This document shows, piece by piece, positions 40,452 to 54,955 of a DNA stretch of 64,000 nt. A program made the position numbers and the translations under genes. The number at the start of each line of letters is the position of its first letter. The first letter of the stretch is position 1. The stretch comes from Collinsella phocaeensis (GTDB taxonomy: Bacteria; Actinomycetota; Coriobacteriia; Coriobacteriales; Coriobacteriaceae), in assembly GCF_900119895.1 (NCBI RefSeq), contig NZ_FQLR01000004.1, forward strand, positions 744,001-808,000, in the 5' to 3' direction. Below the pieces are notes generated by a model that was not told where the DNA came from, ran no database searches, and saw nothing but the letters and a program-made list of their open reading frames with translations.

Positions 40452-43400
40452 ATGCAGATGCTTTATACGGTTGTAAAGGAAAACTCGTATCAGGACTCCA
40501 TCAACCTGATGCTGCTTACCAACAAGATCAACGCTATGCCGGGCGTGGCCCAGAGCCAGATCATGATGGGCACCGATGCCAACAAGGACATCTATGATGC
40601 GGCGGGCCTGCTTACGCCCGAAGCTGCCGTCGCCAGCCCTAGCGACATGGTGATCGTCGTCGAGGCGGATGACGAGAAGATCGTGGACGAGGTGCTGTCC
40701 GAGACCGAGGCGTTCCTCGACGACCTGTCCGTCAAGAAGGCGGCTGACGGCGGAAGCGCGACCGCCACGTCCTGGGAGGAGGCCGTTGCGGCGCTTCCCG
40801 ATGCCAATCTGGCGCTTTTCTCCATTCCCGGCGAGTACGCCGCGCCCGAGCTCGAGCGAGCCCTCGACCTGGGCCTCAACGTGTTCTCCTTCACCGATAA
40901 CGTCGCGCTCGAGGATGAGGTCCGCCTCAAGCGGAAGGCACACGAGAAGGGCCTGCTCTTCATGGGCCCCGACTGCGGCACCGGCGTGATCAGCTCCGTG
41001 CCCGTGGCGTTCACCAACGTGATCAACCCCGGCAACATCGGCATCGTCGGCGCCTCGGGCACCGGCATCCAGGAAGTCACCTGTGCCATCGACCGCATGG
41101 GCGGTGGTTGCGTGCACGCCATCGGCACCGGTGGCCGCGACCTCAACGCCAAGGTGGGCGCCGTCACCGTCAAGGACGCCATCGTGGCGCTCGAGAACCA
41201 TGACGCCACCGATGTTATCTGCGTCATCTCCAAGCCGCCTGCGCCCGAGGTGCGCGACGAGGTCATCGACTTGCTCGAGAAGTGCGAGAAGCCGGTCGTC
41301 GCCATCTTCATCGGCGAGAAGCCCGAAGCGCACCTGGGCCATGTGCACCTGGCCCACACGCTCGAGGAGTGCGCGCAGATCGCCGTGGACCTGGCTGCCG
41401 GCCGTGAGGTCAAGGCTAATTACTGCGAGCCGGTCGACGTCAAGGTCGCCGAGCCCCTTTCTGAGGACAAGACCGTCGTCGGCCTGTATTCCGGCGGCAC
41501 GCTTGCCGGCGAGGCCGCGATGATGATCGCCGAGGCGCTTGAGCTCGGTCATATCATCAAGGAAGACGGCTACATGCTCCGTCACGGCGGCTACGACGTC
41601 ATCGACCTGGGCGACGACGTGTACACCCAGGGCCGCCCGCACCCCATGATCGACCCCGAGGTCCGCGTCAAGATGATGCGCGAGTACGCCGCCAAGCCCA
41701 CCACGGGCGTCATCGTCTTCGACTGCGTGCTGGGCTATGGTTGCCACCCCGATATGGCAGCCGAGCTCGCCCCGGTCATCACCGAGTGCATCGAGACCGC
41801 GCGCTCTGACGGCCGCGAGCTCCACTTCGTGGGCACGGTCGTGGGCACCAGCCACGATCCGCAGGATTACGACCGTTCCCTCAAGCTGCTGACCGATGCC
41901 GGTGCCGTCATGGAATCGAGCAATGCCCGCGCCGTGCGCGCCGCGCTCGCCTTCAAGGGCGTCGACTACACCGAGGAGGACCGTCCGACCGTCGACTACA
42001 CGGTCAAGGACGACTCACCGCTTCCCGAGCCCTCCGATGCCGTGATGGAGCTCCTCAACACCAAGCCGCGTGTGATCAACGTGGGCGTCGAGAGCTTCGT
42101 CGACCCGCTCATCACCTACGGCGCCGAGGCGGTCCAGTATGCCTGGAAGCCCATGGCGGGCGGCAACAAGCGCATGATCCATCTGCTTACCGAACTCGCC
42201 AAGCACGATGAGATCGATGAGCAGAACGGCCGCATCATCGAGCGCTTCCGCGCCTCCCAGCCGTTCCTGGTCGACGTCAAGCCCGCCGGGGAGCTTATCC
42301 CCGAGATCAACGGCAAGGTCATTCTCCATGCCGGTCCTCCGATCGAGTACAGTCATATGACCGACCCCATGCAGGGCTCCTGCGTCGGTGCCGTCCTTTT
42401 CGAGGAGTGGGCCGACAACGAGGCCGACGCCCGCAAGCTGCTCGAGAGCGGCGAGGTCACGTTCATCCCGTGCCATCACGTGCACGCCGTGGGTCCCATG
42501 GGCGGTATCACCTCGCAGAGCATGCCGCTCGTCGTGGTTGAGAACCGTGTCGACGGCACCGTGGGCTACTGCACCATGAACGAGGGCATCGGCAAGGTTC
42601 TTCGTTTCGGGGCCTACTCCGAGGAGGTCGTCAACCGACTGCGCTGGATGCGCGATGTGCTCGGCCCGGTGCTCTCCGAGGCGCTCAAGCTCAAGGACGG
42701 CGGCATCAACCTCAACGTCCTCGTGGCGAAGGCCATCACCATGGGCGACGAGTTCCACCAGCGCAACATCGCCGCCTCCCTGTGCTTCCTCAAGGAGGTC
42801 GCGCCGCTCATCACCCGCATGGAGTGGGATGCCAAGGAGAAGGAAGAGGTCATCCAGTTCCTGGCCGATACCGACCAGTTCTTCCTCAACATCATGATGG
42901 CCATGGGCAAGGCGATCGTGGACTACGTGCGCAAAGATCGAGAGGGCTGCGTGGTCACCACCATGTGCCGCAACGGCGAGAACTTCGGCGTGCGCGTCTC
43001 CGCGCTCGGCGACGAGTGGTTCTGCGCCCCCGTCAACACTCCCAACGGCCTGTACTTCACGGGTTTTGCCCCCGAGGACGCGAACCCCGATATCGGCGAC
43101 TCCGCGATCACCGAGACCGTGGGAGTGGGTGCCATGGCCATGATCGCCGCGCCCGGCGTCACCCGCTTCGTCGGTGCCGGCGGCTTCGAGGACGCGCTCG
43201 CCACTTCCAACGAGATGGAGAAGATATGCGTCACGCATAACCCCGCCTGGACCATTCCCACATGGGATTTCAAGGGTACCTGCCAGGGTATCGACATCCG
43301 CAAGGTCGTCGCCACCGGTATCACGCCCCTCATCAACACCGGCATCGCCCACAAGCAGGCTGGCGTTGGCCAGATCGGTGCCGGCACCGTGCGCGCGCCG

Positions 43401-43457
43401 CTCGGTTGCTTCGAGAAGGCGCTCGAGGCCTACTGCGCAAGCCTGGGAATCGAGTAG
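40452..43457 (+). CDS. fdrA: FdrA-AllG (YlbE) fusion, oxamate carbamoyltransferase large subunits
   Basis: A 1001-residue protein that joins two polypeptides which are separate in E. coli. Residues 1 to about 530 are FdrA: succinyl-CoA-synthetase-alpha-like Rossmann parts with GIVGASGTGIQEVTCAIDRM and later the VFDCVLGYGCHPD region. Residues from about 535 are the DUF1116 (YlbE/YahG) protein: VINVGVESFVDP, then PMGGITSQSMP and GVGQIGAGTVRAPLGCF. Together with AllH these form the enzyme that splits oxalurate with phosphate into oxamate and carbamoyl phosphate. AllH is encoded 4 nt downstream. The ribosome-binding site is weak (GAAAG). Confidence 0.88.
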   Translation: MQMLYTVVKENSYQDSINLMLLTNKINAMPGVAQSQIMMGTDANKDIYDAAGLLTPEAAVASPSDMVIVVEADDEKIVDEVLSETEAFLDDLSVKKAADGGSATATSWEEAVAALPDANLALFSIPGEYAAPELERALDLGLNVFSFTDNVALEDEVRLKRKAHEKGLLFMGPDCGTGVISSVPVAFTNVINPGNIGIVGASGTGIQEVTCAIDRMGGGCVHAIGTGGRDLNAKVGAVTVKDAIVALENHDATDVICVISKPPAPEVRDEVIDLLEKCEKPVVAIFIGEKPEAHLGHVHLAHTLEECAQIAVDLAAGREVKANYCEPVDVKVAEPLSEDKTVVGLYSGGTLAGEAAMMIAEALELGHIIKEDGYMLRHGGYDVIDLGDDVYTQGRPHPMIDPEVRVKMMREYAAKPTTGVIVFDCVLGYGCHPDMAAELAPVITECIETARSDGRELHFVGTVVGTSHDPQDYDRSLKLLTDAGAVMESSNARAVRAALAFKGVDYTEEDRPTVDYTVKDDSPLPEPSDAVMELLNTKPRVINVGVESFVDPLITYGAEAVQYAWKPMAGGNKRMIHLLTELAKHDEIDEQNGRIIERFRASQPFLVDVKPAGELIPEINGKVILHAGPPIEYSHMTDPMQGSCVGAVLFEEWADNEADARKLLESGEVTFIPCHHVHAVGPMGGITSQSMPLVVVENRVDGTVGYCTMNEGIGKVLRFGAYSEEVVNRLRWMRDVLGPVLSEALKLKDGGINLNVLVAKAITMGDEFHQRNIAASLCFLKEVAPLITRMEWDAKEKEEVIQFLADTDQFFLNIMMAMGKAIVDYVRKDREGCVVTTMCRNGENFGVRVSALGDEWFCAPVNTPNGLYFTGFAPEDANPDIGDSAITETVGVGAMAMIAAPGVTRFVGAGGFEDALATSNEMEKICVTHNPAWTIPTWDFKGTCQGIDIRKVVATGITPLINTGIAHKQAGVGQIGAGTVRAPLGCFEKALEAYCASLGIE

Positions 43458-43461
43458 CTCG

Positions 43462-44307
43462 ATGGTCATCGATGCGCGACGGGTTTCTCCTTTTGTCGGA
43501 CCGCTCTTGAGTGGGAGCCGCGCCGGTTGCGTGCAGGGGGTGTTCTCAACGAGCTTCAACGTCGAGTTCGACGGCAGGATTGTCCACGTCGGGCGCGATT
43601 CCGACCTGTTCTCCTGCACGGGGTTGTCGATCACGCAGGATGACATGGCGGCTCTTGCGCCCGGCCTCGTCGCCGGCAACATCGCGACGATTCGCGATGG
43701 CGTCTTACGCCTGTATGCCACTATGGGCGTCGTCGAGGTGGACGTTAATGGGGCGACGGTGGTTCCGTGTGCGGTTCCCCGCGTCCCCGACGAGAAAAGC
43801 GCAGGGTGGGCTGCATCTCGTCTTGCCGGGCTTCCCCTCCGCGAACGGACGGGACTTCCGAGTTCGCAGGAGACGCGCAGGGCTTTGAGCGCGCTCGCCG
43901 ATTCCGGTTCCCTTCCCCATGCGGTCGAGGAGGCGGTTGCGCACCTCACCGGGCGCGGGCCGGGCCTCACGCCTTCGGGTGATGACGTGCTGCTGGGATA
44001 CACCTGCTGTCGCGTCGCGTTCGGGATGGGTGATGGGTTGGCGGACCTCGTGGTGCGCAAAGCCACGGGGGCTACCACGCCGGTATCGGTTTCCTATGCC
44101 CAGGCGCTCGCGGAGGGTTTCATCAACCCCGTCTATCGAAAACTGCTTTGTGCGGCAACGGATTGTAACCAATTCGAGTTCATGGAGGCGGTCCGCATGA
44201 TCGAGCGCGTCGGTCATACCTCGGGCATCGATGCCCTGCTTGGGCTCTCGCTTGGATTCTCGTACGTATGCACGCGCGCGGCCAGCCCCATCCATGAGGT
44301 CGCGTAG
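43462..44307 (+). CDS. allH: DUF2877 protein AllH (YlbF), oxamate carbamoyltransferase subunit
   Basis: A 281-residue DUF2877 protein, close to YlbF of E. coli (about 271). The signature GRGPGLTPSGDDVLLGY is at about residues 168-184. It starts 4 nt after the FdrA-AllG stop with no clear ribosome-binding site, so translation is probably coupled, as expected of a subunit of the same complex. A 11-bp hairpin lies in the gap before allD. Confidence 0.88.
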   Translation: MVIDARRVSPFVGPLLSGSRAGCVQGVFSTSFNVEFDGRIVHVGRDSDLFSCTGLSITQDDMAALAPGLVAGNIATIRDGVLRLYATMGVVEVDVNGATVVPCAVPRVPDEKSAGWAASRLAGLPLRERTGLPSSQETRRALSALADSGSLPHAVEEAVAHLTGRGPGLTPSGDDVLLGYTCCRVAFGMGDGLADLVVRKATGATTPVSVSYAQALAEGFINPVYRKLLCAATDCNQFEFMEAVRMIERVGHTSGIDALLGLSLGFSYVCTRAASPIHEVA

Positions 44308-44310
44308 CCG

Positions 44311-44344
44311 CTTGCGCGCCGTCGCTTCTTCCTCGGCGCGCAAG
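44311..44344. terminator. intercistronic hairpin between allH and allD
   Basis: CTTGCGCGCCG pairs perfectly with CGGCGCGCAAG over a 12-nt loop. There is no T-run, so it is more likely a processing or stability element than a full stop. Confidence 0.35.
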
Positions 44345-44411
44345 GATGCACCGTGGTCCACGCGGGCGCACGCCCGCTGCTAGTAATCATTTAGACCCCA
44401 AGGAGGTCACC

Positions 44412-45464
44412 ATGCTCGTCAAGCGCGAAGAACTCAAGTCCCTCATGAAAAACAAGTTCATGGCGGCAGGTCTGCACGAGGACCACGCCGACAAGATGGC
44501 CGAGGTGCTCACCTGGTCTTCCGAGCGCGGCCTGCACAGCCATGGAGAGGTGCGCGTCGAGTACTACACCGAGCGCATCTCCAAGGGCGGCATGACGATC
44601 GATCCGGATTGGACGTGGACCCAGACCGGTCCCTGCACCGGTATCGTCGACGGCGACAACGGCTGCGGATATCCGTTTGCCATTCTGGGCCTTGAGAAGG
44701 CCATGGAGCTTGCAAAGGAGAACGGTATCGGCGTCGTGGGCGTCAAGCGCGTCTCGCACACCGGTGCCCTGGGATACTACACCGAGATGGCCGCCAAGAA
44801 CGACCTGTGCTGCCTTACTATGTGCCAGTCCGATCCGATGGTCATCCCGTACGGCGGCGCCGAGCCCTTCTACGGCACCAACCCCATCGCCTTCGGAGCC
44901 CCCACCGCCGATGAGCGCTTCGTCAACTTCGACATGGCGACAACCGTCCAGGCTTGGGGCAAGATCCTTGACGCGAAGAGCGCCGGGCGCTCCATTCCCG
45001 ACGACTGGGCGGTGGATGTGGACGGCAACCCCACGACCGATCCTCATCAGGTCAACGCCCTGCGCGCCATCGCCGGCCCCAAGGGTTACGGCCTCATGAT
45101 GGTCGTCGACATCCTCTCCGGTATCCTGCTGGGGGTGCCCGCCGGCAAGAACGTTTCCTCTATGTACCACGACCTTTCCGAGGGCCGCGAGCTCGGACAC
45201 CTGCACATCGTCATCGACCCTTCGCGCTTCTGCGGTCTCGACGAATTCAAGCAGCACATGTCCCGCACGCTTGACGAGCTGGGCGCTGTCAAGCCCGCCA
45301 CCGGCTACGACAAGGTGTACTACCCCGGCGAGCGCGCCCTTATCCGTAAGGCGAAGTGTGACGCGGCGGGCGGTATCGAGATCGTGGACGACATCTACGA
45401 CTACCTGGTCTCCGACAAGCTCTATATCCACAGCTGGGACCACAAGAACCGCTTTGCCGAGTAG
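44412..45464 (+). CDS. allD: ureidoglycolate dehydrogenase
   Basis: A 350-residue member of the LDH2/malate-lactate oxidoreductase family; AllD of E. coli has 349. Landmarks: HSHGEVRVEYY at the N-terminus, the catalytic His in KRVSHTGALGYY, GTNPIAFGAP and GPKGYGLMMVVD. It oxidises (S)-ureidoglycolate to oxalurate with NAD+. AGGAGG stands 5 nt before the ATG. It supplies the substrate for the carbamoyltransferase encoded just upstream. Confidence 0.93.
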   Translation: MLVKREELKSLMKNKFMAAGLHEDHADKMAEVLTWSSERGLHSHGEVRVEYYTERISKGGMTIDPDWTWTQTGPCTGIVDGDNGCGYPFAILGLEKAMELAKENGIGVVGVKRVSHTGALGYYTEMAAKNDLCCLTMCQSDPMVIPYGGAEPFYGTNPIAFGAPTADERFVNFDMATTVQAWGKILDAKSAGRSIPDDWAVDVDGNPTTDPHQVNALRAIAGPKGYGLMMVVDILSGILLGVPAGKNVSSMYHDLSEGRELGHLHIVIDPSRFCGLDEFKQHMSRTLDELGAVKPATGYDKVYYPGERALIRKAKCDAAGGIEIVDDIYDYLVSDKLYIHSWDHKNRFAE

Positions 45465-45488
45465 CGGCTTCGCACCGTGCCGCTCGCG

Positions 45489-45523
45489 CTTCAGGGCCGG
45501 TCGCCTTGATCGGCCCTGAAGCT
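45489..45523. terminator. intercistronic hairpin between allD and carbamate kinase gene
   Basis: GCTTCAGGGCCG pairs with CGGCCCTGAAGC, followed by TTTCACAGGCTTTT. It may stop part of the transcripts ahead of the carbamate kinase gene. Confidence 0.45.
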
Positions 45524-45557
45524 TTCACAGGCTTTTACAAGAAGAAGGAGGCTATTG

Positions 45558-46496
45558 ATGGCCGAGCGTATCGTTATCGCCCTGGGCGGCAACGCCATTC
45601 TCACCGATGACCCCACCGCGCAGGCGCAGATGAAGGCGCTGGATGTCACGTGCGACTACATCGTGCCGCTTATTGCCGCCGGCCACGAGGTCATCATCAC
45701 CCATGGCAACGGGCCCCAGGTCGGCAATCTCCTGTTGCAGCAGGAAGCTGCCGATTCGCCCGAGAACCCGGCGATGCCGCTCGATACGTGCGTTGCCATG
45801 ACGCAGGGTTCCATCGGGTACTGGACCATGCTCGCCATGCGTGGCGCGCTCAAGCGAGCCGGTATCAAGAAGCTCGTCCAGGTTCTTGCCATGACCGCCA
45901 CCGTGAGTCCGGACGATCCTGCGTTCAAGCATCCCACCAAGCCCATCGGGCCATTTTATACCGAGGACCAGGCCCGCGAGCTTATGGCCGCCAACCCCGA
46001 TGAGACCTATATCGAGGATTCCGGCCGCGGATGGCGTCGCGTGGTGCCCTCGCCGGAGCCCATGGAGCTTCCCGGCTGCGCCGGCATCGAGGCGCTCGCC
46101 GATGCGGGCATCGTGGTCATCTGCACCGGCGGCGGCGGAATTCCCGTGCTCGAGGACGACAAGGGCGTCTATGGCGTCGAAGGCGTTATCGACAAGGACC
46201 TCACGGCCGAGAAGATCGCCGAGACCGTTAACGCCGACCACCTGGTGATCTGCACCGGCGTGGACAACGTGTGCGTCGACTTCGGCAAGCCTTCGCAGCG
46301 CGCTCTCTCGACGATCTCCATCTCCGAGGCTGAGCGCTATATCGAGGAAGGTCAGTTCCCCGCCGGCTCCATGCTGCCCAAGGTGCGTGGATGCATGCGC
46401 TTCGTGCAGTCTGGCGAGGGGCGGCGCGCCACGATCACCTCGCTCGAGTGCCTGTCGAGGCTGAGCGAAGGGGCGGGTACGACCATCGTGCGCTAA
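45558..46496 (+). CDS. allK: carbamate kinase
   Basis: A 312-residue amino-acid-kinase-family enzyme with IVIALGGNAIL, ITHGNGPQVGNLLLQQ, CTGGGGIPV and the GVEGVIDKD segment. In the catabolic direction it makes ATP and carbamate from carbamoyl phosphate and ADP, the energy-yielding last step of oxalurate fermentation. AAGGAGG gives a 6-nt spacing to the ATG at 45558; a TTG directly before it is also in frame. The symbol follows the allantoin-linked kinase of E. coli (ybcF/allK); the family is also called ArcC. Confidence 0.93.
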   Translation: MAERIVIALGGNAILTDDPTAQAQMKALDVTCDYIVPLIAAGHEVIITHGNGPQVGNLLLQQEAADSPENPAMPLDTCVAMTQGSIGYWTMLAMRGALKRAGIKKLVQVLAMTATVSPDDPAFKHPTKPIGPFYTEDQARELMAANPDETYIEDSGRGWRRVVPSPEPMELPGCAGIEALADAGIVVICTGGGGIPVLEDDKGVYGVEGVIDKDLTAEKIAETVNADHLVICTGVDNVCVDFGKPSQRALSTISISEAERYIEEGQFPAGSMLPKVRGCMRFVQSGEGRRATITSLECLSRLSEGAGTTIVR

Positions 46497-46545
46497 CTCA
46501 GGTACATACGCGGCTCGGGGACGTGCGGGCGGCGTTTGTATATAG

Positions 46546-46583
46546 GGCGCCCGCGGCAGACGGACAGCCGCGGGCGCCTTTTT
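46546..46583 (+). terminator. intrinsic terminator of the carbamate kinase operon
   Basis: A perfect 12-bp stem (GGCGCCCGCGGC and complement), 9-nt loop and TTTTT make a textbook Rho-independent terminator. The insertion sequence begins 2 nt after its last T. Confidence 0.9.
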
Positions 46584-46584
46584 A

Positions 46585-46601
46585 ATATGAGTTGAACATT
46601 G
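46585..46601 (+). repeat. left 17-bp inverted repeat of the insertion sequence
   Basis: Perfect inverse of 48095-48111; it marks the edge next to the terminator of the carbamate kinase gene. Confidence 0.85.
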
Positions 46602-46894
46602 TCAAGTGGCAAAAAGGCCCTGCCCTCCGCGGAGCTACCGCGGAGGGCAGGGTCCATCTATCTTCACCCGGTGGCCGCGCCGCTTGAGGGCGTGTCTGCT
46701 CGACGCACGTTCGGCACTCTAATATCCGCGGGTCGGAACCGCATCTCGTTGCTACGGCTGGGGGCCTCCGCTCGGTCGCAGTCTCGTGGCGGGCGTGGCG
46801 GTCTCCCGCCGCCCAGAAAAAGGACTGGAACGGCCTCCCAACGGCCTCGAGCGCGGCGAGCCCCCGGGGTCGGACTCCTATGGGGCCGCGGGCG
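46602..46894 (-). ncRNA. noncoding end of the insertion sequence, candidate bridge RNA region
   Basis: These 293 nt lie between the transposase stop codon and the left inverted repeat and encode no protein. IS110-family elements are known to produce a structured bridge RNA from a noncoding end; in the IS1111 branch it lies downstream of the recombinase, as here. Several GC hairpins are visible, including the terminator at 46613-46652. The RNA itself and its guide loops are inferred, not seen. Confidence 0.4.
46613..46652 (-). terminator. intrinsic terminator of the transposase transcript
   Basis: A perfect 15-bp stem (CCCTGCCCTCCGCGG and complement, 46618-46652) with a 5-nt loop, followed on the leftward strand by CCTTTTTG. 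It would also define the 3' end of any RNA made from the noncoding end. Confidence 0.8.
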
Positions 46895-47998
46895 CTACCG
46901 GGCCATGAGCGCTATCGCCCAGACCCAGCAGGCCATCTCGCGGGCCGTCGCGCAGTTCGCCACGCACGGCCTCTTCCCCGCCTGGGACATGGCGTCCCGC
47001 CTGTCCTGCAGGCGGCGGTTGCACTTCGCGGCGTGCCTCGACACGGCCGGCGCGACCCCGTGGCCCGGCCTCGGCTTCTTGGGGTGCCTCGTCGACATCG
47101 GGACGTGCCAGGACGCCTCGACCAGCGCGCGCCGGACGTGGCCGTTACCGGCGCGGGTGATCCCGCCGCGCGACTCCGTCTCGCCGCTCGAGCGCTCCGA
47201 GGGGGCCAGGCCGCACCACGAGGCGAACGACGGCGCGGTCGGGAACCTCGAGAAGTCGCCGGCCTCGGCGGCGAGCAGGAAGGCACTCGCGACGTCGATG
47301 CCCTTCACCAGGCAGAGCGCGTCGACGACAGGCGCCCACTCGGGGCGCGCGGCGGCCTCCTCCACCTTGCGCTCGAGCTCCCTCTTGGCCTCGGCGCAGC
47401 GCTCCACGGCGTCCATGTAGTGCTCGTAGGCGGCCGCGTCGTCGGCCTCGCCGAACTCGATCGACCTCGCCCACCTCCAGTACGCCTCGGTCCAGTTCGA
47501 CCTGCGGCGCCCGGCCGGCGTCGTCTCGTCGAACACCAGGCCGTGCCTGAGCAGGAACTTGGACATGCGCTGCCTGGCGCGCTGCAGGTCGTCGCGGGCG
47601 TCCTCGAGCGCGCGGGAGAGGTCCCGGGCGGCCTCGGTGCGGTCATCGGGCACCCACACCTCGACGACGTTGCGGCAGGCGAGGAGCCTGGCCAGCCACT
47701 CGGCGTCGCGCCGGTCGTTCTTGCGGCCCCGGTCGGCCGCGGGCCGGTGCATCTTGGAGACGGCGCCCACGGCGCAGTCGACGCCGAGGGCGCGCAGGGC
47801 GCGGCACAGGTGGAAGCCGGTCGGGCCGCTCTCGTACACCGCCTTGGGCGACTCGAACCCCAGGACCCACTCGGCGACCGACGCCGGGTCGTAGCCGAAC
47901 CTGGCCCGGACCACCTCGCCGGTCATGGGGTCGAAGGCGCATGCGGAGATGCTCCTCGCGTGGACGTCGAGACCGATGGCTGTGACATAATTGGACAT
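46895..47998 (-). CDS. IS110-family transposase (DEDD recombinase)
   Basis: A 367-residue recombinase. The N-terminal RuvC-like domain has Asp11 (GLDVHARS), Glu56 (YESGPTGF) and Asp95/Asp98 (KNDRRDAEWLARLL). The C-terminal Transposase_20 domain contains LVKGIDVASAFLLAAEAGDF and the SWCGLAPSERSSG/ RGGITRAGNGHVRRALVEAS stretch with the catalytic-type Ser. Length and motifs are complete, so the element may be active. GAGAGGGG precedes the ATG at 47998. Confidence 0.93.
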   Translation of the reverse strand: MSNYVTAIGLDVHARSISACAFDPMTGEVVRARFGYDPASVAEWVLGFESPKAVYESGPTGFHLCRALRALGVDCAVGAVSKMHRPAADRGRKNDRRDAEWLARLLACRNVVEVWVPDDRTEAARDLSRALEDARDDLQRARQRMSKFLLRHGLVFDETTPAGRRRSNWTEAYWRWARSIEFGEADDAAAYEHYMDAVERCAEAKRELERKVEEAAARPEWAPVVDALCLVKGIDVASAFLLAAEAGDFSRFPTAPSFASWCGLAPSERSSGETESRGGITRAGNGHVRRALVEASWHVPMSTRHPKKPRPGHGVAPAVSRHAAKCNRRLQDRRDAMSQAGKRPCVANCATAREMACWVWAIALMAR

Positions 47999-48094
47999 GG
48001 CGGGCCCCTCTCCGTCGCATGTGGCGCGCGGCCACGGTTGGCGTTACGACCATTGTCGCCCGACCCACGATAGAGCTACAAGGGGAGGGGCTCC

Positions 48095-48111
48095 CAATGT
48101 TCAACTCATAT
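48095..48111 (-). repeat. right 17-bp inverted repeat of the insertion sequence
   Basis: Perfect inverse of 46585-46601; it lies about 95 nt upstream of the transposase start. Confidence 0.85.
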
Positions 48112-48165
48112 CGTCTCGCGTCGCATGCCGAGGACGCTCTCCCTGATCGTCCCTCTGCACACACG

Positions 48166-48202
48166 GCGCGGGCGGACCGCCGATATGACGATCCGCCCGC
48201 GC
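48166..48202 (-). terminator. hairpin behind pucG
   Basis: GCGCGGGCGGA pairs with TCCGCCCGCGC over a 15-nt loop, 30 nt past the pucG stop on the leftward strand. No T-run follows. Confidence 0.4.
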
Positions 48203-48231
48203 GCCTCAGGGTCCCGCTGTCCTCGAATCCG

Positions 48232-49479
48232 CTATGCGGCGTACACCGCCTCGGCGGCGGCTGCTCCGGCGGCTATGTCCACCTGCGCCCCTGCGTCGAG
48301 CAGCGCCGAACCCAGGGCGAGCAGGCATGTCATAACGCAGTCTTTGCGGGCATTGGAGCCCATGATGCCCACGCGCCAGATTTTGCCCTGGAGCGGGCCG
48401 AAAGAGCTTGCGATCTCGACGGCGTAGTTTTCGAGCAGGGACGCTCGTACGGAATCGGTGACTCCGTCGGGGATCACGATGCCGACGACGTCGTTCATGC
48501 GCGTTGCCTGGTCACCGTAGAGCTCGAGGCCCATGCCGGAGACGCCGGCGGCCATGGCGGCGCCGTTCAGGCGATGGCGCTCGACGGCCTCGTCGATGCC
48601 CTCCTCGCAGATAAGGCGGAGCGTCTCGTGTGCGGCGTAAAGCATATGGGTGGCTTCGGTGTGGTGGTTGATGCGGCGCGGCCCCCAATAGTTCACAAGC
48701 TGGGGGAAGTCGAAGTAGTTGGAGCGGATGCGCTGCTCGGCGGGCAGCAGGTCGGCGGGGGAGTCGGCGATGCCCTCCTCGACCGACTCGCGCGCCTTCA
48801 TGGCTTCGAACGCCGCCGGCGAGACGACGATGGGGGACATGCCCGCGGGCCCGCCCATGCATTTCTGCATGCCGGCGGTGGCGATATCGATGCCCCATTC
48901 CGCGCAGCGCAAATCGTTTCCCACGAAGGAGGCGGTGGCATCGGTCATGAGGAAAGCGCCTGCGGCATGGCAGATGTCCCCCAGACCCTCGAGCGGCTGC
49001 AGCATGGTGGTCGAGGTGTCTCCAGCGACGGTGCATACGAGCTTGGGCCGCGTCTCGTCGATGGCGGCGGCGATTTCTTCGATGGTGAAAACATGGCCCC
49101 AGTCCTTGGCGATCGTGGTCACTTCGCCGCCCACGCGCGTGGCGATCTCGGCCAACAGCAATCCGAAACGGCCTGCGGAGCATACAAGGACCTTGTCGCC
49201 CGGGGTGATGATGGACACGAGGGCGCACTCGATCGCGGCGCGCGAGGAGCCGTCGACCATGAGGGCTTCATAACCAGGCGCCTTGAAGCAGTAGCGCAGC
49301 ATGTCCTGCACTTCGTTCATGATTCTGAGCATATAGGGGTCGAACTGACCGACCGTGGGGGCCGCCATGGCGGAAAGGATGCGCGGATCAACCGTGGTGG
49401 GTCCCGGAGCCATGAGCAGGCGGTGGGGCGGATTGATGCGCTGTATGCTTCGTACGTTGGAGGTTGCGGTCTGATTCAT
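48232..49479 (-). CDS. pucG: (S)-ureidoglycine-glyoxylate aminotransferase (PucG) type class V aminotransferase
   Basis: A 415-residue PLP enzyme of the serine-pyruvate/alanine-glyoxylate group. It has LLMAPGPTTVDPRIL at the N-terminus, DGSSRAAIECAL, TDATASFVGN (cofactor Asp) and the Schiff-base Lys in GMQKCMGGPAG. In this context it is likely PucG, which moves the amino group of ureidoglycine to glyoxylate, giving oxalurate and glycine. Plain serine-glyoxylate transamination cannot be excluded by sequence. GGGAG precedes the ATG at 49479. The insertion sequence lies behind it. Confidence 0.85.
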   Translation of the reverse strand: MNQTATSNVRSIQRINPPHRLLMAPGPTTVDPRILSAMAAPTVGQFDPYMLRIMNEVQDMLRYCFKAPGYEALMVDGSSRAAIECALVSIITPGDKVLVCSAGRFGLLLAEIATRVGGEVTTIAKDWGHVFTIEEIAAAIDETRPKLVCTVAGDTSTTMLQPLEGLGDICHAAGAFLMTDATASFVGNDLRCAEWGIDIATAGMQKCMGGPAGMSPIVVSPAAFEAMKARESVEEGIADSPADLLPAEQRIRSNYFDFPQLVNYWGPRRINHHTEATHMLYAAHETLRLICEEGIDEAVERHRLNGAAMAAGVSGMGLELYGDQATRMNDVVGIVIPDGVTDSVRASLLENYAVEIASSFGPLQGKIWRVGIMGSNARKDCVMTCLLALGSALLDAGAQVDIAAGAAAAEAVYAA

Positions 49480-49580
49480 AGTCGGTCTCCCAGATTTAGG
49501 CATGTACTGACAAAAGCCTATCCCAACGAATGGTGCCGCATGGGATAAGAATAGATGCGAAATGCTGTCACAACAAGTAA

Positions 49581-49609
49581 TTGACATCACTATTCCGTCG
49601 AGTTATATG
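49581..49609 (+). promoter_or_regulatory. sigma-70-type promoter for the adenosyltransferase gene
   Basis: A perfect -35 TTGACA (49581-49586), exactly 17 nt, then TATATG (49604-49609). It would give a leader of about 170 nt before the GTG at 49788. Confidence 0.6.
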
Positions 49610-49741
49610 CGCAGCTGTTTCCAGGGGGGGGTTCGTGCGACATGCCTCGATAACCGAAGATGGCGTTGACATGGCTTGCGCGGATTCCGTCATCGAGATG
49701 TCCGGTGAGGCCTTATGTTCAAATCGGGTATGCTCTCAGCG

Positions 49742-49764
49742 GGGATGACGCTTCGGCTCATCCC
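49742..49764 (+). promoter_or_regulatory. leader hairpin ahead of the adenosyltransferase gene
   Basis: GGGATGA pairs with TCATCCC over 9 nt; an outer GTATG/CATAC may lengthen it. The hairpin ends 10 nt before AAGGAG and could influence translation. Confidence 0.3.
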
Positions 49765-49787
49765 ATACGCTTGGAAGGAGACCCGCC

Positions 49788-50426
49788 GTGCCGTCCAGCC
49801 AAACATCCGCATTGCCGGAAAACGATGCGATCCGTCCTCTCGGGGAGTCCGCGGAAGCCCCTTGCGCCCGGGCTCGATTCCGCACCGCTTCGGGGGAGCC
49901 CCTTGACGAGAAGCCCGCGCACATGACGCACCTGCTGGGCACGGCGCTGGTGAGCAAAGCGCATCCCCGCATCGTGCTGCGGGGCAAGTCGGACAGCCTT
50001 CAGGCCCAGATGCTGCTGGCGCGGCTCGCTGCGCTGGATGCCGGCGACGAGCGGACTTCGGAGGCGCTCGGGGAGCTCATCGCCTATGCGCGCGCCCTCA
50101 TGGCCGCTGAGGTCGCCGATTCCGTCCCCGTGGAGCTCACCATGCTGGGCATGGATGCCGACCGTATCCACGAGGCGTCGCACGATCCCAAGCGCTGGAT
50201 AGGGGTGGGGCACCTGCTGCCCGATGTGCGTATGGGCGCGGTCGCTTTGCACGTCAACGCGCTGCGGTGTGTGGCGCGCGAGGCCGAGCTCGCCTGCGTC
50301 GCGGCGTATGAGCGCGATGACGGATCGTGTGCGCGTCCCGATATGGTACAGGGCTACAACCTGTTGAGCAGCGCGTTGTACGTGCTCGAGCTGCTCGCCG
50401 CAGCGCGCTTCGAGCACCTGGGGTAA
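49788..50426 (+). CDS. eutT: EutT-like cobalamin adenosyltransferase
   Basis: A 212-residue protein that follows the EutT pattern: KPAHMTHLLGTALVSKAHPR, RGKSDSLQAQMLLA, the LTMLGMDADRIHEASHDPKR stretch, then HLLPDVRMGAVALHVNALR and a C-terminal YNLLSSALYVLELL helix. EutT adenylates cob(I)alamin to coenzyme B12. The Cys-rich metal motif that precedes THL in enterobacterial EutT (CC-x-x-C) is absent here. The start is GTG at 49788 with AAGGAG 8 nt upstream. No ethanolamine genes are near, but a cobalamin riboswitch follows directly. Family assignment is from motif memory. Confidence 0.7.
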   Translation: MPSSQTSALPENDAIRPLGESAEAPCARARFRTASGEPLDEKPAHMTHLLGTALVSKAHPRIVLRGKSDSLQAQMLLARLAALDAGDERTSEALGELIAYARALMAAEVADSVPVELTMLGMDADRIHEASHDPKRWIGVGHLLPDVRMGAVALHVNALRCVAREAELACVAAYERDDGSCARPDMVQGYNLLSSALYVLELLAAARFEHLG

Positions 50427-50732
50427 TATAGGCGGATGCGGAGGCGCCTCCGTGCCCCGCTTGTGCCGGGCGCGCACGCGCCGCCGTACACAATGCATGT
50501 TGGCCCGACAGATGGTGCGGAGACGCACGGGGACGCCGCACGTGGCGTCGTCCTTGGGGGAATCGGGGTGCAAGGCCCCGGCTATACCAGTAACCGTGAT
50601 TCCAGCGCACGGGAGCGCGAACTGCAGATCGGACAGCTCGCCCGCGCGGTAAAGGATGAGCCGGATCGCCTCTCTGTCTGAGATACGCCCGCGTGGCCGG
50701 GCGGGGCCCTGGAGAGAAAGGGTTTTCTAACC
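50427..50732 (+). other. intergenic region with the cobalamin riboswitch
   Basis: The 306 nt between the adenosyltransferase gene and the first DUF4430 gene consist mainly of the riboswitch and its expression platform. No gene is seen. Confidence 0.6.
50500..50690 (+). promoter_or_regulatory. cobalamin riboswitch
   Basis: The conserved core is recognisable: GGGGGAA, then GGTGCAAGGCC, GGCT and ACCAGTAACCGTGA, which match the GGGAA / GGTG-AA-CC / GCTG / CGCAACTGT pattern of the cobalamin aptamer. At the 3' side GATGAGCCGGATCGCC corresponds to the AGCCAGGA-ACC-GCC box. P1 can form from GACAGA (50507-50512) and TCTGTC (50673-50678), closing an aptamer of about 170 nt. A GCCCG/CGGGC hairpin (about 50687-50702) before the ribosome-binding site may be the switch. 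It should repress the DUF4430 genes when adenosyl- or other cobalamin is abundant. Confidence 0.8.
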
Positions 50733-53573
50733 ATGTCCAGACCTATACGGCCTGCGCTTCGCTCCGCCGGTTCCTGGCGGCGCTCGCTCGCCGCGGCACT
50801 CATCGCCGCACTGCTCGTGTGCCAGGTGCCCACGCCGGCCCTTGCGGAGATGGCCGATGCGGCCGCATCGTCCGCAGCGGCGGCGCAGCAGCAGGAGTCC
50901 GTCGTCGATGCCGCGGCATCCGGCGCCGGGCAAGACGCTGCAGCCGAAACGACGGAGGGCACCGCTGGCGATGCGGCCTCCGAAGCCGGAGGCGCCGCCG
51001 ACCCTGCGACCGAATCGGTAGGGGATGGTGCGCTCGGCAGCGATTCCGCCGACACCGATACCTCCCAGGACGGCACGGATGCCGCCGAGGATCCGGCGGC
51101 GGCCGACGCCGTCGACGACGGGGGCGCCCCGTCCGCATCCGATGAGACCGCGGCCGAAGCTGGCGACCGGGACCGGGCCGTCACCGTCTCGGTCGCCGTG
51201 GTGGGCCCGGGCGCGGACGGCGTGACCGCGCGCTGGGCCGGCGCCGAAGCGCTGACGCTCGATGCCGGCTCCACCGCAGCCGATGCCTCCGAGGCGCTCT
51301 TCGAGCAGGCGGGCCTTGCGGCCGATACGGGCGTCGGCGCGTACGGCTGGTTCCTCAATTCCATCACCTCGCCCTACACGGGCGAGCAGCTGGGCTGGGA
51401 TGGGGCCACGGGCCGCTACTGGCAGCTCTTCGTCGACGGCAAGCCGTCCGAGACGGGCGCCGGCGGCATCGAACTTGCCGACGGCATGGCCGTCACCTGG
51501 GCGTACTCGGCGTTCGGTGACGGCGTGCCCGAGGTGGATGCCCTCGAGGTCTCCGTCTCCGTGATCGGTCCCGACGCGAACGGCGCCGACGTGCGGTGGG
51601 CCGACGCCGCGCTGAAACTCGATGCCGGCTCCACCGCGGCCGACGCCTCCGAGGCGCTCTTCGCGCAGGCGGGCCTTGCGGCCGATGCCGGCATCGGATC
51701 GTACGGCTGGTATCTCAACTCAATCACCTCGCCCTATACCGGCGAGGCGCTGGGCTGGGACCAGCCGACCGGGCGCTACTGGCAGCTCTTCGTCAACGGG
51801 GAGCCGTCGGATACGGGTGCCGGCGGCGTGGTTCTTTCGGCGGGTGACACCGTCTGCTGGGCGTACTCCGCGTTCGGTGACGGCGTGCCCGAGACGTCTC
51901 CCGTCGTGCCCGACCCGGATGCGGAGCGGCCCGACTGGGAGAGCGCCTGGCCGGGATACGGCAGCTCCGTGCCCGAGGGTGCCGGCCTGCCCACCGGCGC
52001 GGTTTCCGAGTCCTGGGTTTCCCAGATGAAAGATCCTTCAGACTGGGCGACGAACGTCTCCGACCCGATCGTCGCGGGCGGCCGCGTCTTCGTGGCGGTC
52101 GGTTCCGAGCTGCGCCAGCTCGACCCCGCGACGGGCGAGGTGCTGCGCCGCGGCGCGCTTGCCGCCCCCATCGACTCGATCGCGCGCATGGTCTATACCG
52201 ATGGCGTCGTGGTGGTGCCGCTTTCGGGCGGCCGCCTGCAGGCGCTCACGGCCGATGCGCTCACCACCGTCTGGGTGACGCCCACTCTCGCTGCCGGCGT
52301 GGCCGGCGCGCAGCAATCCTTGAGCTCGCTCACCGTGGGTGACGGCTGCGTCTACTTTGGCACCGCCGACGCCGACTGGTCGACCACCTACGGCGGCTAT
52401 CTCGTGTGCGTCGACACCTCGACGGGCAAGGTGCTCTGGACGCAGCAGAACAAGGAGGCGGGATACTACTGGGCCGGCGCGGTCCGCGTCGGCGGCTTCC
52501 TCGCGATCGGTGACGACACGGGCGTCGTCCGCGTGCTTGACGCTGCGACCGGCACCGCCGTGTCCTCGCTGTCCGTGGGCGCCCGCGTGCGCTCGACGCT
52601 TGTTGCCGGCGCGGACGGCTCCACGGTCTACGCCGTCACCTACGACGGCGTGCTCCACCGTCTGGCGGTCGGCCAGGACGGCGCGATCGCCCAGACGGGC
52701 AGCGTCAAGTTCGCCAAGAGCTCCGTGGGCACCCCGACGCTCGTGGGCGGCAAGCTCTACGTGGGCGGTCAGTCCGAGGAGTACGTGCAGGTGAACAAAT
52801 ACACCAAGGCGTATCTCGGCGTGATGGCCGTGATCGATGCGGAGACGCTGTCCGTCGAGCGCGCGGTCTCCACCGTGGACGGCGCTCCGCTGATGGGCGA
52901 CAAGAGCTCGGCCGACGTGATGGGCGCACCGGTCGTCGCGACCCGTGATGGCGAGACCTACATCTACTTCACGGCTAACTGCAAGCCGGGCGGCGTGTAC
53001 CGCTACCGCGTGGGCGCCGCGTCGGCCGAGCTGGTCTACACCCCGTCCGAGGCGAATCAGAACTTCTGCATGGCCTCCATCGTCGTGGGCGACGACGGCT
53101 CGCTGTACTACGTCAACGATTCCGGCGCTCTGTTCGCGCTCGCGGGCGACGGCGTCCTCGTGCCCGAGACCCCGGAGACCCCTGAGACCCCTGAGACCCC
53201 GGAGGCGCCCGAGGTCCCGGAGACGCCTGAGGCTCCGGAGACCCCGTCGACGCCGCCTGCCGGCGAGAATCACGACGGCGGCAAGCACCAGGCCGGCGGC
53301 GCGGTCCCTGCGGGCAAGAAGCCCGTCGCCGCGCAGGCCGCGGGCAAGTCCGGCGAGACGGAGAGGGATGTTGGTGAGGAGAAGGGCGTGTCCGCAGATG
53401 AGGTGTCTGAGGACGCCTCCGGTACCCGCAAGGTGTCGGCCGCCGGCGTCGCGGTGGAGGGCTCCGTCGCTGCGTCCGGCATGAACCCGCTGGCAGTGGC
53501 CGGTGTCGTCGCGGGCGTCGCTGGCCTCGTGCTCGTCGGTGCGTACATGGCGATCGTGAGGAAGCGTGGCTAG
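50733..53573 (+). CDS. secreted, membrane-anchored protein with two DUF4430 domains and a PQQ-like propeller
   Basis: A 946-residue surface protein. In order: signal peptide (1 to about 38, cut after ALA), an Ala/Asp/Glu-rich spacer, two nearly identical DUF4430 domains (about 150-266 and 271-386, each with GRYWQLFV and WAYSAFGDGVPE), a beta-propeller of PQQ-like repeats (about 438-805), a Pro-Glu-Thr repeat region (about 810-840) and a C-terminal membrane helix with IVRKRG tail. DUF4430 is related to the C-terminal domain of transcobalamin. With the riboswitch upstream, a role in cobalamin binding at the surface is likely but unproven. The ligand of the propeller is unknown. Confidence 0.85.
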   Translation: MSRPIRPALRSAGSWRRSLAAALIAALLVCQVPTPALAEMADAAASSAAAAQQQESVVDAAASGAGQDAAAETTEGTAGDAASEAGGAADPATESVGDGALGSDSADTDTSQDGTDAAEDPAAADAVDDGGAPSASDETAAEAGDRDRAVTVSVAVVGPGADGVTARWAGAEALTLDAGSTAADASEALFEQAGLAADTGVGAYGWFLNSITSPYTGEQLGWDGATGRYWQLFVDGKPSETGAGGIELADGMAVTWAYSAFGDGVPEVDALEVSVSVIGPDANGADVRWADAALKLDAGSTAADASEALFAQAGLAADAGIGSYGWYLNSITSPYTGEALGWDQPTGRYWQLFVNGEPSDTGAGGVVLSAGDTVCWAYSAFGDGVPETSPVVPDPDAERPDWESAWPGYGSSVPEGAGLPTGAVSESWVSQMKDPSDWATNVSDPIVAGGRVFVAVGSELRQLDPATGEVLRRGALAAPIDSIARMVYTDGVVVVPLSGGRLQALTADALTTVWVTPTLAAGVAGAQQSLSSLTVGDGCVYFGTADADWSTTYGGYLVCVDTSTGKVLWTQQNKEAGYYWAGAVRVGGFLAIGDDTGVVRVLDAATGTAVSSLSVGARVRSTLVAGADGSTVYAVTYDGVLHRLAVGQDGAIAQTGSVKFAKSSVGTPTLVGGKLYVGGQSEEYVQVNKYTKAYLGVMAVIDAETLSVERAVSTVDGAPLMGDKSSADVMGAPVVATRDGETYIYFTANCKPGGVYRYRVGAASAELVYTPSEANQNFCMASIVVGDDGSLYYVNDSGALFALAGDGVLVPETPETPETPETPEAPEVPETPEAPETPSTPPAGENHDGGKHQAGGAVPAGKKPVAAQAAGKSGETERDVGEEKGVSADEVSEDASGTRKVSAAGVAVEGSVAASGMNPLAVAGVVAGVAGLVLVGAYMAIVRKRG

Positions 53574-53574
53574 C

Positions 53575-54615
53575 ATGGCAGACGATATGGCAAGAGTTCC
53601 CGGTCGGCCGACGCCGGAAGGCGGCTCGCCGTCCGATACGCACCCGGAGCCCCGCCCCGTGCCGAACGGGTCCTTTGAGGCCCCCGCCGCGGGCGGGTCT
53701 CCTGCCGACGCCCCCGGTGCGGACGTCTCGGCGACCGACCGCGGGTCGTCGGCGCCATCCCCCGAAGACGCCCCCCGCGTCCCGTCCGTCCGGTTTCCCG
53801 GAACGGATGAGGGCGATGCGGGCACGGGCGCGCTCGAGGTTCCCGAAGCGCCTGCCGTTCGCCGTGCGCCCGCCGCGCTCGCCGGCGCGCTGGCGCTGGG
53901 CTGCGTCATCCTCATCGCCGTCTCCCTCGGCTTTGTGCGCCCCGCTGCGGACGGCAGCTGGTCGCTCGCGTGGGTCTTCGGTGCCTCCGGGTCCTCGTCG
54001 GTCGTCGAGATGGGCTCTGCGGAGGGCTCGACCGAGGACGCGGCCGCCGATGGCGCGGCAGACGGCGGGCAGGCAGACGGCGGGCAGGCCGAGCAGGACG
54101 CCGCCGCGCAGACCGGCGGCGCCAAGGGCGACGCCTCCTCGGATGGAGCATCTGCCGAAACCTCCGCATCCGGCACGGGCGCGGACTCGTCGGGATCGGG
54201 CGGGTCGTCGTCCGGTTCGAAGGGCGGGGGCTCTACCTCGCATGCGGGTTCGGCCGGCGGTACCTCGTCGAGCGGTGGCAACGCCTCCGCGCCCGCCCCG
54301 GATCCCGACACGGTGACCGTCACGGTGTCGGTGGATTCCTCGGCGGCGGACGGCTCGGTGTCGGGCGGCGGCACGTTCACCTTCGAGCGCGGGGCGACGG
54401 CCTACGACGCGCTGCTCGCCTGCGGCCTCACGGTGGGCGCCGAGAACTCGCCCATGGGCATCTACGTGTACTCCATCGGCGGCCTCGCCGAGAAGCAGTT
54501 CGGAGGCGGCAGCGGCTGGAACTATGCGGTCAACGGCTCCACGCCGGGCTTTTCCTGCGGGGCCTACGAGCTGTCCGACGGCGATGCCGTCAGGTGGTTC
54601 TACGTGACGGGCTGA
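53575..54615 (+). CDS. membrane-anchored DUF4430 protein
   Basis: A 346-residue protein with a ~98-residue Pro/Ala-rich N-terminal part, one membrane helix (about 100-120), a long Ser/Gly/Asp/Ala-rich linker and a C-terminal DUF4430 domain (about 246-346, with GGGSGWNYAVNG and LSDGDAVRWFYVTG). The order implies a type II orientation with the domain outside. It starts 1 nt after the preceding gene; a GTG at 53566 is the alternative start (GAGGA lies between the two usual spacings). It shares the riboswitch-led transcript and would be a second cobalamin-binding surface protein. Confidence 0.8.
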   Translation: MADDMARVPGRPTPEGGSPSDTHPEPRPVPNGSFEAPAAGGSPADAPGADVSATDRGSSAPSPEDAPRVPSVRFPGTDEGDAGTGALEVPEAPAVRRAPAALAGALALGCVILIAVSLGFVRPAADGSWSLAWVFGASGSSSVVEMGSAEGSTEDAAADGAADGGQADGGQAEQDAAAQTGGAKGDASSDGASAETSASGTGADSSGSGGSSSGSKGGGSTSHAGSAGGTSSSGGNASAPAPDPDTVTVTVSVDSSAADGSVSGGGTFTFERGATAYDALLACGLTVGAENSPMGIYVYSIGGLAEKQFGGGSGWNYAVNGSTPGFSCGAYELSDGDAVRWFYVTG

Positions 54616-54955
54616 TCTGTCGGTCAGCGGTCTATGCCGCAGGTGCCATGACGTTCAAACGGGGGCGCGCGGGGAACATGGTCCCCGCGCGCCCTTCTTC
54701 ATGGTGCTGGCGCTCTGAAGGAGGCGCTTCCCCTTCGGGGATGTCGGGCTGTCTGCGGCGCGGGCGGGGCGTGCCGTAGCTGCGGTTTCGACGCGCTGCC
54801 GCGTCTATGCTCATCACCCGTTGCGCACCGGGTGCCGCGATTCCGTTTCCCGCTTGATGCCGGTTTGCGTACCCTGCGCGCTCGGCCGACTAGAGCCCCG
54901 TGTTACGGGTATGCTTCGTCTAACTGTTGTAAAGCAAGTAGGAGATGATGCATCC
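54616..54955. other. intergenic region after the DUF4430 genes
   Basis: 340 nt that hold the terminator at 54663-54700 and, at the right, the AGGAG ribosome-binding site of the FMN reductase gene. The rest shows no gene and no recognised motif. Confidence 0.5.
54663..54700 (+). terminator. intrinsic terminator of the DUF4430 operon
   Basis: A perfect 13-bp stem (GGGCGCGCGGGGA and complement) with a 6-nt loop, followed by TTCTTC. Confidence 0.75.

Follow-up and report, generated by a model that had tools for sequence, protein, structure and literature searches.

The locus lies within a window of 64,000 nucleotides, the whole stretch of DNA analysed here, in a genome of 2.1 Mb that is 98.8% complete. 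Read along the + strand, an adenosyltransferase gene is followed by a leader RNA (50504-50732), two overlapping genes and a strong hairpin, with the following features.

49788..50426, + strand: EutT/PduO-type cob(I)alamin adenosyltransferase, 212 aa (PF01923, 51.9 bits against a cut-off of 24)
50504..50680, + strand: predicted riboswitch aptamer of the cobalamin clan, AdoCbl-II-like (RF01689 at 25.8 bits, sub-threshold; relatives; covariance model)
50681..50732, + strand: probable expression platform and ribosome-binding site (sequence conservation; putative mechanism)
50733..53573, + strand: surface protein, 946 aa, with a signal-peptide-like segment, two DUF4430 domains, a BamB-like beta-propeller and a C-terminal membrane span
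53566..54615, + strand: membrane-tethered protein, 349 aa, with an N-terminal membrane span, a low-complexity linker and a C-terminal DUF4430 domain
54661..54696, + strand: strong hairpin followed by a UUCUUC tail, probable transcription terminator (-33.9 kcal/mol, z -4.8)

The leader shares with AdoCbl-II and Cobalamin riboswitches the aptamer core GGGAAUC..GGGUGCAA..CCC..GCUAUACCAGUAACCGU and a closing P1 helix, in which GACAGA (50507-50512) pairs with TCTGTC (50673-50678). Most leaders bear an extra 3' hairpin with GCAGAUCGGAC, and a conserved GGNCCTGGA...AGG-like motif sits beside the start codon, within 50681-50732. Scanning genome contigs with the first protein yielded 20 homologs, in named genomes from Collinsella, Enorma, Slackia and Gordonibacter, which together with the Collinsella record L005 make 21 loci; the sole match of a plasmid search, a distant Collinsella homolog, was taken as the seed. 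In each of the 21 loci, the leader core CCAGTAACCGT lies 5' of the homolog. Compensatory, two-sided changes occur at 22 of the 31 pairs, with 96.1% paired, in an alignment of 29 distinct sequences that leans to the structure because it was fitted to the covariance model, and at 14 of the 31 pairs of the consensus structure in an independent MAFFT alignment. In the alignment of 29 sequences, covariation is 0.547 compared with 0.167 when shuffled; none of 500 shuffles attains the former value, which is far beyond slid controls as well. Our own covariance model, built from the MAFFT alignment of homologous leaders, scores the window's leader at 154 bits as the one strong site in this genome; 18 of the 20 genus members scanned have a site, as do 51 of the 120 genomes from the order. 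A second candidate in the same genome, at C3:218834, has an E value of 0.42 and was taken as chance.

Standard family models see far less of this RNA. An Rfam scan of the window at gathering thresholds gives no match; AdoCbl-II (RF01689) scores 25.8 bits against a gathering score of 36.5 (E 9e-4 on 501 nt), and Cobalamin (RF00174) scores 16.8 bits, the sole candidate of that family in the genome. By itself, the window's score is weak evidence for clan membership. Matches to the clan (CL00101) with E up to 1 are nonetheless present in 20 of 20 relatives' leaders tested (17 AdoCbl-II, 3 Cobalamin), five of which exceed the gathering score, a same-genus leader with 41.4 bits among them; the L034 leader also lies above it, at 36.6 bits. 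From the conserved, covarying leader together with the clan matches of its relatives, it follows that this is a predicted cobalamin-clan aptamer close to AdoCbl-II and under-detected by Rfam in Coriobacteria, whose response to cobalamin is itself a prediction. The window and most relatives differ from the established AdoCbl-II and Cobalamin families in scoring below the gathering cut-off. An earlier note on this DNA had called a cobalamin aptamer here, and the conserved leader, the compensatory changes and the relatives' clan matches bear this out; since the window's own aptamer scores below the gathering value, the Infernal search with Rfam models that the note proposed succeeds only by way of relatives above it.

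The three DUF4430 domains read by the earlier note are all above the Pfam cut-off, two in the first open reading frame and one in the second (PF14478, 79.8 bits for the pair and 41.9 bits, cut-off 23.8), and the genome has no others. In the first protein they occupy residues of about 149-266 and 271-386 and are followed, at about 400-805, by a beta-propeller (PF13360, E 1.4e-15; BamB-like in the fold search) that had been missed, leaving the earlier account of this protein incomplete. The second gene starts over the stop codon of the first and encodes a protein with its membrane span near residue 100. Neither surface protein has an LPXTG motif. Of the proposed pair of a secreted and an anchored protein, the anchored second one stands, but the first is also membrane-anchored, through its C-terminal span. 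The stability of the 3' hairpin is compatible with the terminator proposed to close the locus, but a terminator consensus scan does not list it.

The structure model of the DUF4430 domain (pLDDT 93.8) superposes on haptocorrin 4KKI with a Z score of 14.8 and an rmsd of 1.7 Å over 100 residues. Z scores run from 14.8 to 11.9 for haptocorrin (HC), intrinsic factor (IF) and transcobalamin (TC) and from 8.8 down for unrelated beta-grasp folds, a margin of at least 3 Z units between this group and the next fold. The best 15 structural matches are all TC/HC/IF or a bacterial relative (Ruminococcus gnavus 3U7Z), and Foldseek agrees with the TC/HC/IF likeness. In a search of the DUF4430 profile against the PDB, transcobalamins are five of the best six matches, at E values of 0.09-0.9 that are not significant alone. 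The likeness to transcobalamin and intrinsic factor, for which the earlier note had suggested superposition, is thereby upheld, and the model identifies DUF4430 as the predicted beta-grasp domain of the TC/HC/IF beta-domain fold, the same fold as in 4KKI, 2PMV, 2BB5 and 5NP4. Tight binding of B12 by transcobalamin uses an alpha/alpha-toroid, the domain type that closes over the vitamin. The window's proteins differ from TC/HC/IF in being membrane-tethered and in having a beta-propeller where Pfam and fold searches of the window's proteins find no such toroid.

Homologous loci reveal a highly variable first protein, whose open frames reach 2,588 codons, with Ig/ZirU-like stalks and two to four DUF4430 copies. 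In L018, L021 and L023, the N-terminal regions are very long stalks made of Ig/ZirU-like repeat arrays and aBig_2, which are absent in the window's copy; an alpha/alpha-toroid in the N-terminal regions of the long homologs was ruled out, these being Ig/ZirU-like stalks with no PDB match. Other genomes of the same genus have a shorter arrangement, in which the riboswitch precedes a small lipoprotein-like gene with one DUF4430 domain and then an EcfT-like gene. In one relative (L076 477-2036, G091), the first gene of the riboswitch operon encodes a secreted protein that carries DUF5648 and weakly resembles an alpha/alpha-toroid (sub-cut-off Prenyltrans match, E 0.005); DUF4430, ECF and CbrT genes come next, and the arrangement is possibly a split transcobalamin. 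In two others, the region directly downstream of the DUF4430 pair holds an FMN riboswitch (L018 11549-11742 and L022 11510-11703) and, after it, an ECF S component and module.

The earlier note placed the partner importer, taken to be of the BtuCDF type, outside the window. A FecCD/BtuC permease (PF01032) was not found in this genome by a search that matches 14 of 14 control genomes. ECF genes lie 3' of the two surface genes in Slackia (L023) and Gordonibacter (L024), and CbrT-like S components are encoded downstream in the riboswitch operon of these two as well as of L076 and L077 (G063). The profile of the Slackia and Gordonibacter S component matches 6FNP (E 1.4e-9), the solved structure of the ECF-CbrT B12 transporter of Lactobacillus delbrueckii (PMC5997447). 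The genome that holds the window has one S-component ortholog (C1:1369316-1370041), with E values of 8e-47 to the Slackia/Gordonibacter profile and 7e-10 to 6FNP, adjoined by a fused ATPase (A) gene and a T-like gene in an ECF cluster at C1:1369-1373 kb; EcfT-like genes have no Pfam match and are assigned by position and mutual similarity. The likeness to ECF-CbrT lies in the S component, which relatives encode in one operon with the DUF4430 genes, whereas here the S gene has T-like and A genes of its own, and the cluster is 0.57 Mb from the riboswitch locus. No riboswitch was found at this CbrT operon. Given the missing FecCD permease and a CbrT-like ortholog at such a distance, the importer does lie elsewhere but is apparently of the ECF type, and the likely partner is the ECF-CbrT-like transporter at C1:1369-1373 kb, with a substrate predicted from homology. 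At L014 3609-4897 (G000:C1 about 1428.6-1429.9 kb), a tandem pair of membrane proteins, alike and resembling S components, precedes a fused ECF ATPase and EcfT, beside an rRNA methyltransferase-like gene; with a weak TrpP match or nothing, they were set aside as importer candidates.

Five family searches of the genome, for the B12-binding domain, RTPR, NrdJ_Z, EutB and QueG, returned no B12-dependent enzyme above cut-off. The B12-binding domain PF02310 has two matches only, both below cut-off; for class II ribonucleotide reductase (RNR) there is no RTPR match, and NrdJ_Z gives sub-cut-off matches only, to the class I RNR that is the RNR found in this genome. QueG was not found in it either. 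This genome holds the riboswitch, the capture proteins, an ECF-CbrT-like importer and an adenosyltransferase, but none of these searches brought up a B12-dependent enzyme above cut-off.

Taken together, we consider it quite probable that the locus serves its Coriobacteriaceae cell in the capture of corrinoids (vitamin B12), as a module composed of a riboswitch-controlled two-gene operon that works with a CbrT-type ECF importer. What is observed or computed comprises the covarying, conserved leader with its clan assignment, the fold predicted for DUF4430, the pairing of the genes, the ECF-CbrT homolog and the operon linkage in relatives. Surface capture of B12 is well supported by inference from the conserved cobalamin-clan riboswitch, the transcobalamin/haptocorrin fold and the CbrT-type ECF transporters that are co-operonic in relatives. 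In the proposed mechanism, the cobalamin-sensing leader would control the two-gene operon, and both products would be tethered to the cytoplasmic membrane with their transcobalamin-beta-like DUF4430 domains facing outside, where these, perhaps with the propeller, would most likely catch B12 or other corrinoids. The captured corrinoid would be handed to the CbrT-type ECF importer, imported and adenosylated by the EutT-like adenosyltransferase; sensed by the riboswitch, it would lower expression of the capture proteins. Ligand binding, hand-off and the sign of this regulation are the parts of the model that we infer. Against the model stand the lack of an alpha/alpha-toroid, a window aptamer below the gathering score, a CbrT operon at which no riboswitch was found and the lack of a B12-dependent enzyme above cut-off in the families searched. 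A more elaborate version, which we hold as possible but doubtful, would make the first protein one side of a two-part clamp, with the propeller replacing the alpha-barrel and B12 held between it and the DUF4430 domains before hand-off to the second DUF4430 protein and ECF-CbrT. It would further take the leader as a Coriobacteriia-specific riboswitch subclass that is mostly missed by Rfam, and the first gene as a modular slot, filled in one relative by an alpha/alpha-toroid-like protein instead of the one with the propeller.

The same lack of a B12-dependent enzyme above cut-off would be accommodated if the ligand were something other than cobalamin, either another corrinoid or a tetrapyrrole-like compound (cobinamide, other cobamides, a different cofactor). 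Burroughs et al. and their reviewer cautioned that the clade may include binders of other ligands (PMC1796856), and cobinamide can be imported by B12 transporter families (PMC6593275). However, the riboswitch clan, the CbrT homology and the adenosyltransferase all indicate corrinoids, and we regard such a ligand as unlikely. Quite unlikely, in our judgement, is a role in which the surface proteins, though members of the cobalamin regulon, bind no free B12. Instead they would be a scaffold, an adhesin, or a receptor that recognises either a B12-producing neighbour or B12 in complex with a protein, and DUF4430 would be a beta-grasp module for binding proteins. The tandem DUF4430 copies would suit this role, as would the Ig/ZirU-like stalks in homologs, which are about 1,000 residues long or longer and typical of adhesive surface proteins, and a propeller whose closest structures are BamB, beta-propellers often being protein-binding. 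By contrast, the small relatives, with their single DUF4430 domain in a lipoprotein-like product and an EcfT-like gene, fit substrate delivery, and the isolated human TC-beta domain binds cobalamin alone (PMC5599065).

Adjacency on the same strand and a common relation to cobalamin would also allow the adenosyltransferase, the riboswitch and the surface genes to form one conserved functional operon. The adenosyltransferase reading frame called by the earlier note is real by its PF01923 match, but it starts near 49788 and not at 49581, and its score of 95.9 bits with the NCBIfam EutT equivalog misses the cut-off of 226; the protein has no PDB sequence match, and EutB was not found in this genome. 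The placement of this gene within the locus did not hold up, as tblastn finds no adenosyltransferase gene near homologous or same-genus riboswitch loci, so that the three-part locus reflects either chance or a neighbourhood specific to the lineage. An IS110 element about 2 kb upstream is compatible with local rearrangement. Since the riboswitch sits between the adenosyltransferase and the surface genes, the former falls outside the controlled unit. As such, a single conserved operon is very improbable, and the adenosyltransferase is functionally related to the capture module while not being a conserved member of it.

In the gut, B12 is in short supply and competed for. To our knowledge, surface capture of B12 by Gram-positive-type cells exists solely as a prediction made in 2007. 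In Gram-negative Bacteroides, surface capture is proven for BtuG and BtuH, which likewise work beside a membrane importer, and BtuG is a beta-propeller, but the binding-domain family, the envelope and the importer (the TonB-dependent BtuB) are different (PMC6143338, PMC10404256, PMC8941943). The window's propeller has BamB-like best folds, and BtuG is not among its sequence matches. Burroughs et al. predicted in 2007 that bacterial transcobalamin-like surface proteins, mainly of low-GC Gram-positives, are B12 scavengers, and described secretion or anchors, beta-propeller fusions, a second paralogous SLBB gene and CbiO/CbiQ (ECF) neighbours, with riboswitches unmentioned (PMC1796856). Surface DUF4430 proteins, a propeller fusion, paired paralogs and an ECF association are common to those systems and the one described here, whereas the Coriobacterium host, the presence of a riboswitch and an importer that can be named as CbrT-like set the latter apart. 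The idea of bacterial scavengers resembling transcobalamin has thus been known since that prediction, and the riboswitch finding and the CbrT-like importer are added here. In a Lacticaseibacillus proteome, an 'additional lipoprotein component of putative cobalamin ECF transporter' is listed, with a DUF4430 gene near rtpR (PMC9963975). The portions of the DUF4430 literature covered here hold no report of B12 binding by a bacterial member.

The locus offers a compact, regulated and widely conserved system, its leader occurring in 18 of the 20 genomes examined from the genus, for a direct test of the 2007 prediction. It likewise allows a test of the proposed descent of animal transcobalamins from bacterial scavengers, and it brings to light a cobalamin riboswitch group that standard annotation overlooks in most Coriobacteria examined.

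Upstream of the adenosyltransferase gene, the window carries ureide catabolism genes (43174-49590), with an AllD ureidoglycolate dehydrogenase at 44346-45464, the carbamate kinase ArcC at 45555-46496 and a class-V aminotransferase at 48232-49590 (- strand), and this region is likely an anaerobic allantoin/purine degradation cluster. The IS110-family transposase (46895-47998, - strand; NCBIfam 200.8 bits, cut-off 140) belongs to the element noted above, which lies between the carbamate kinase and class-V aminotransferase genes.
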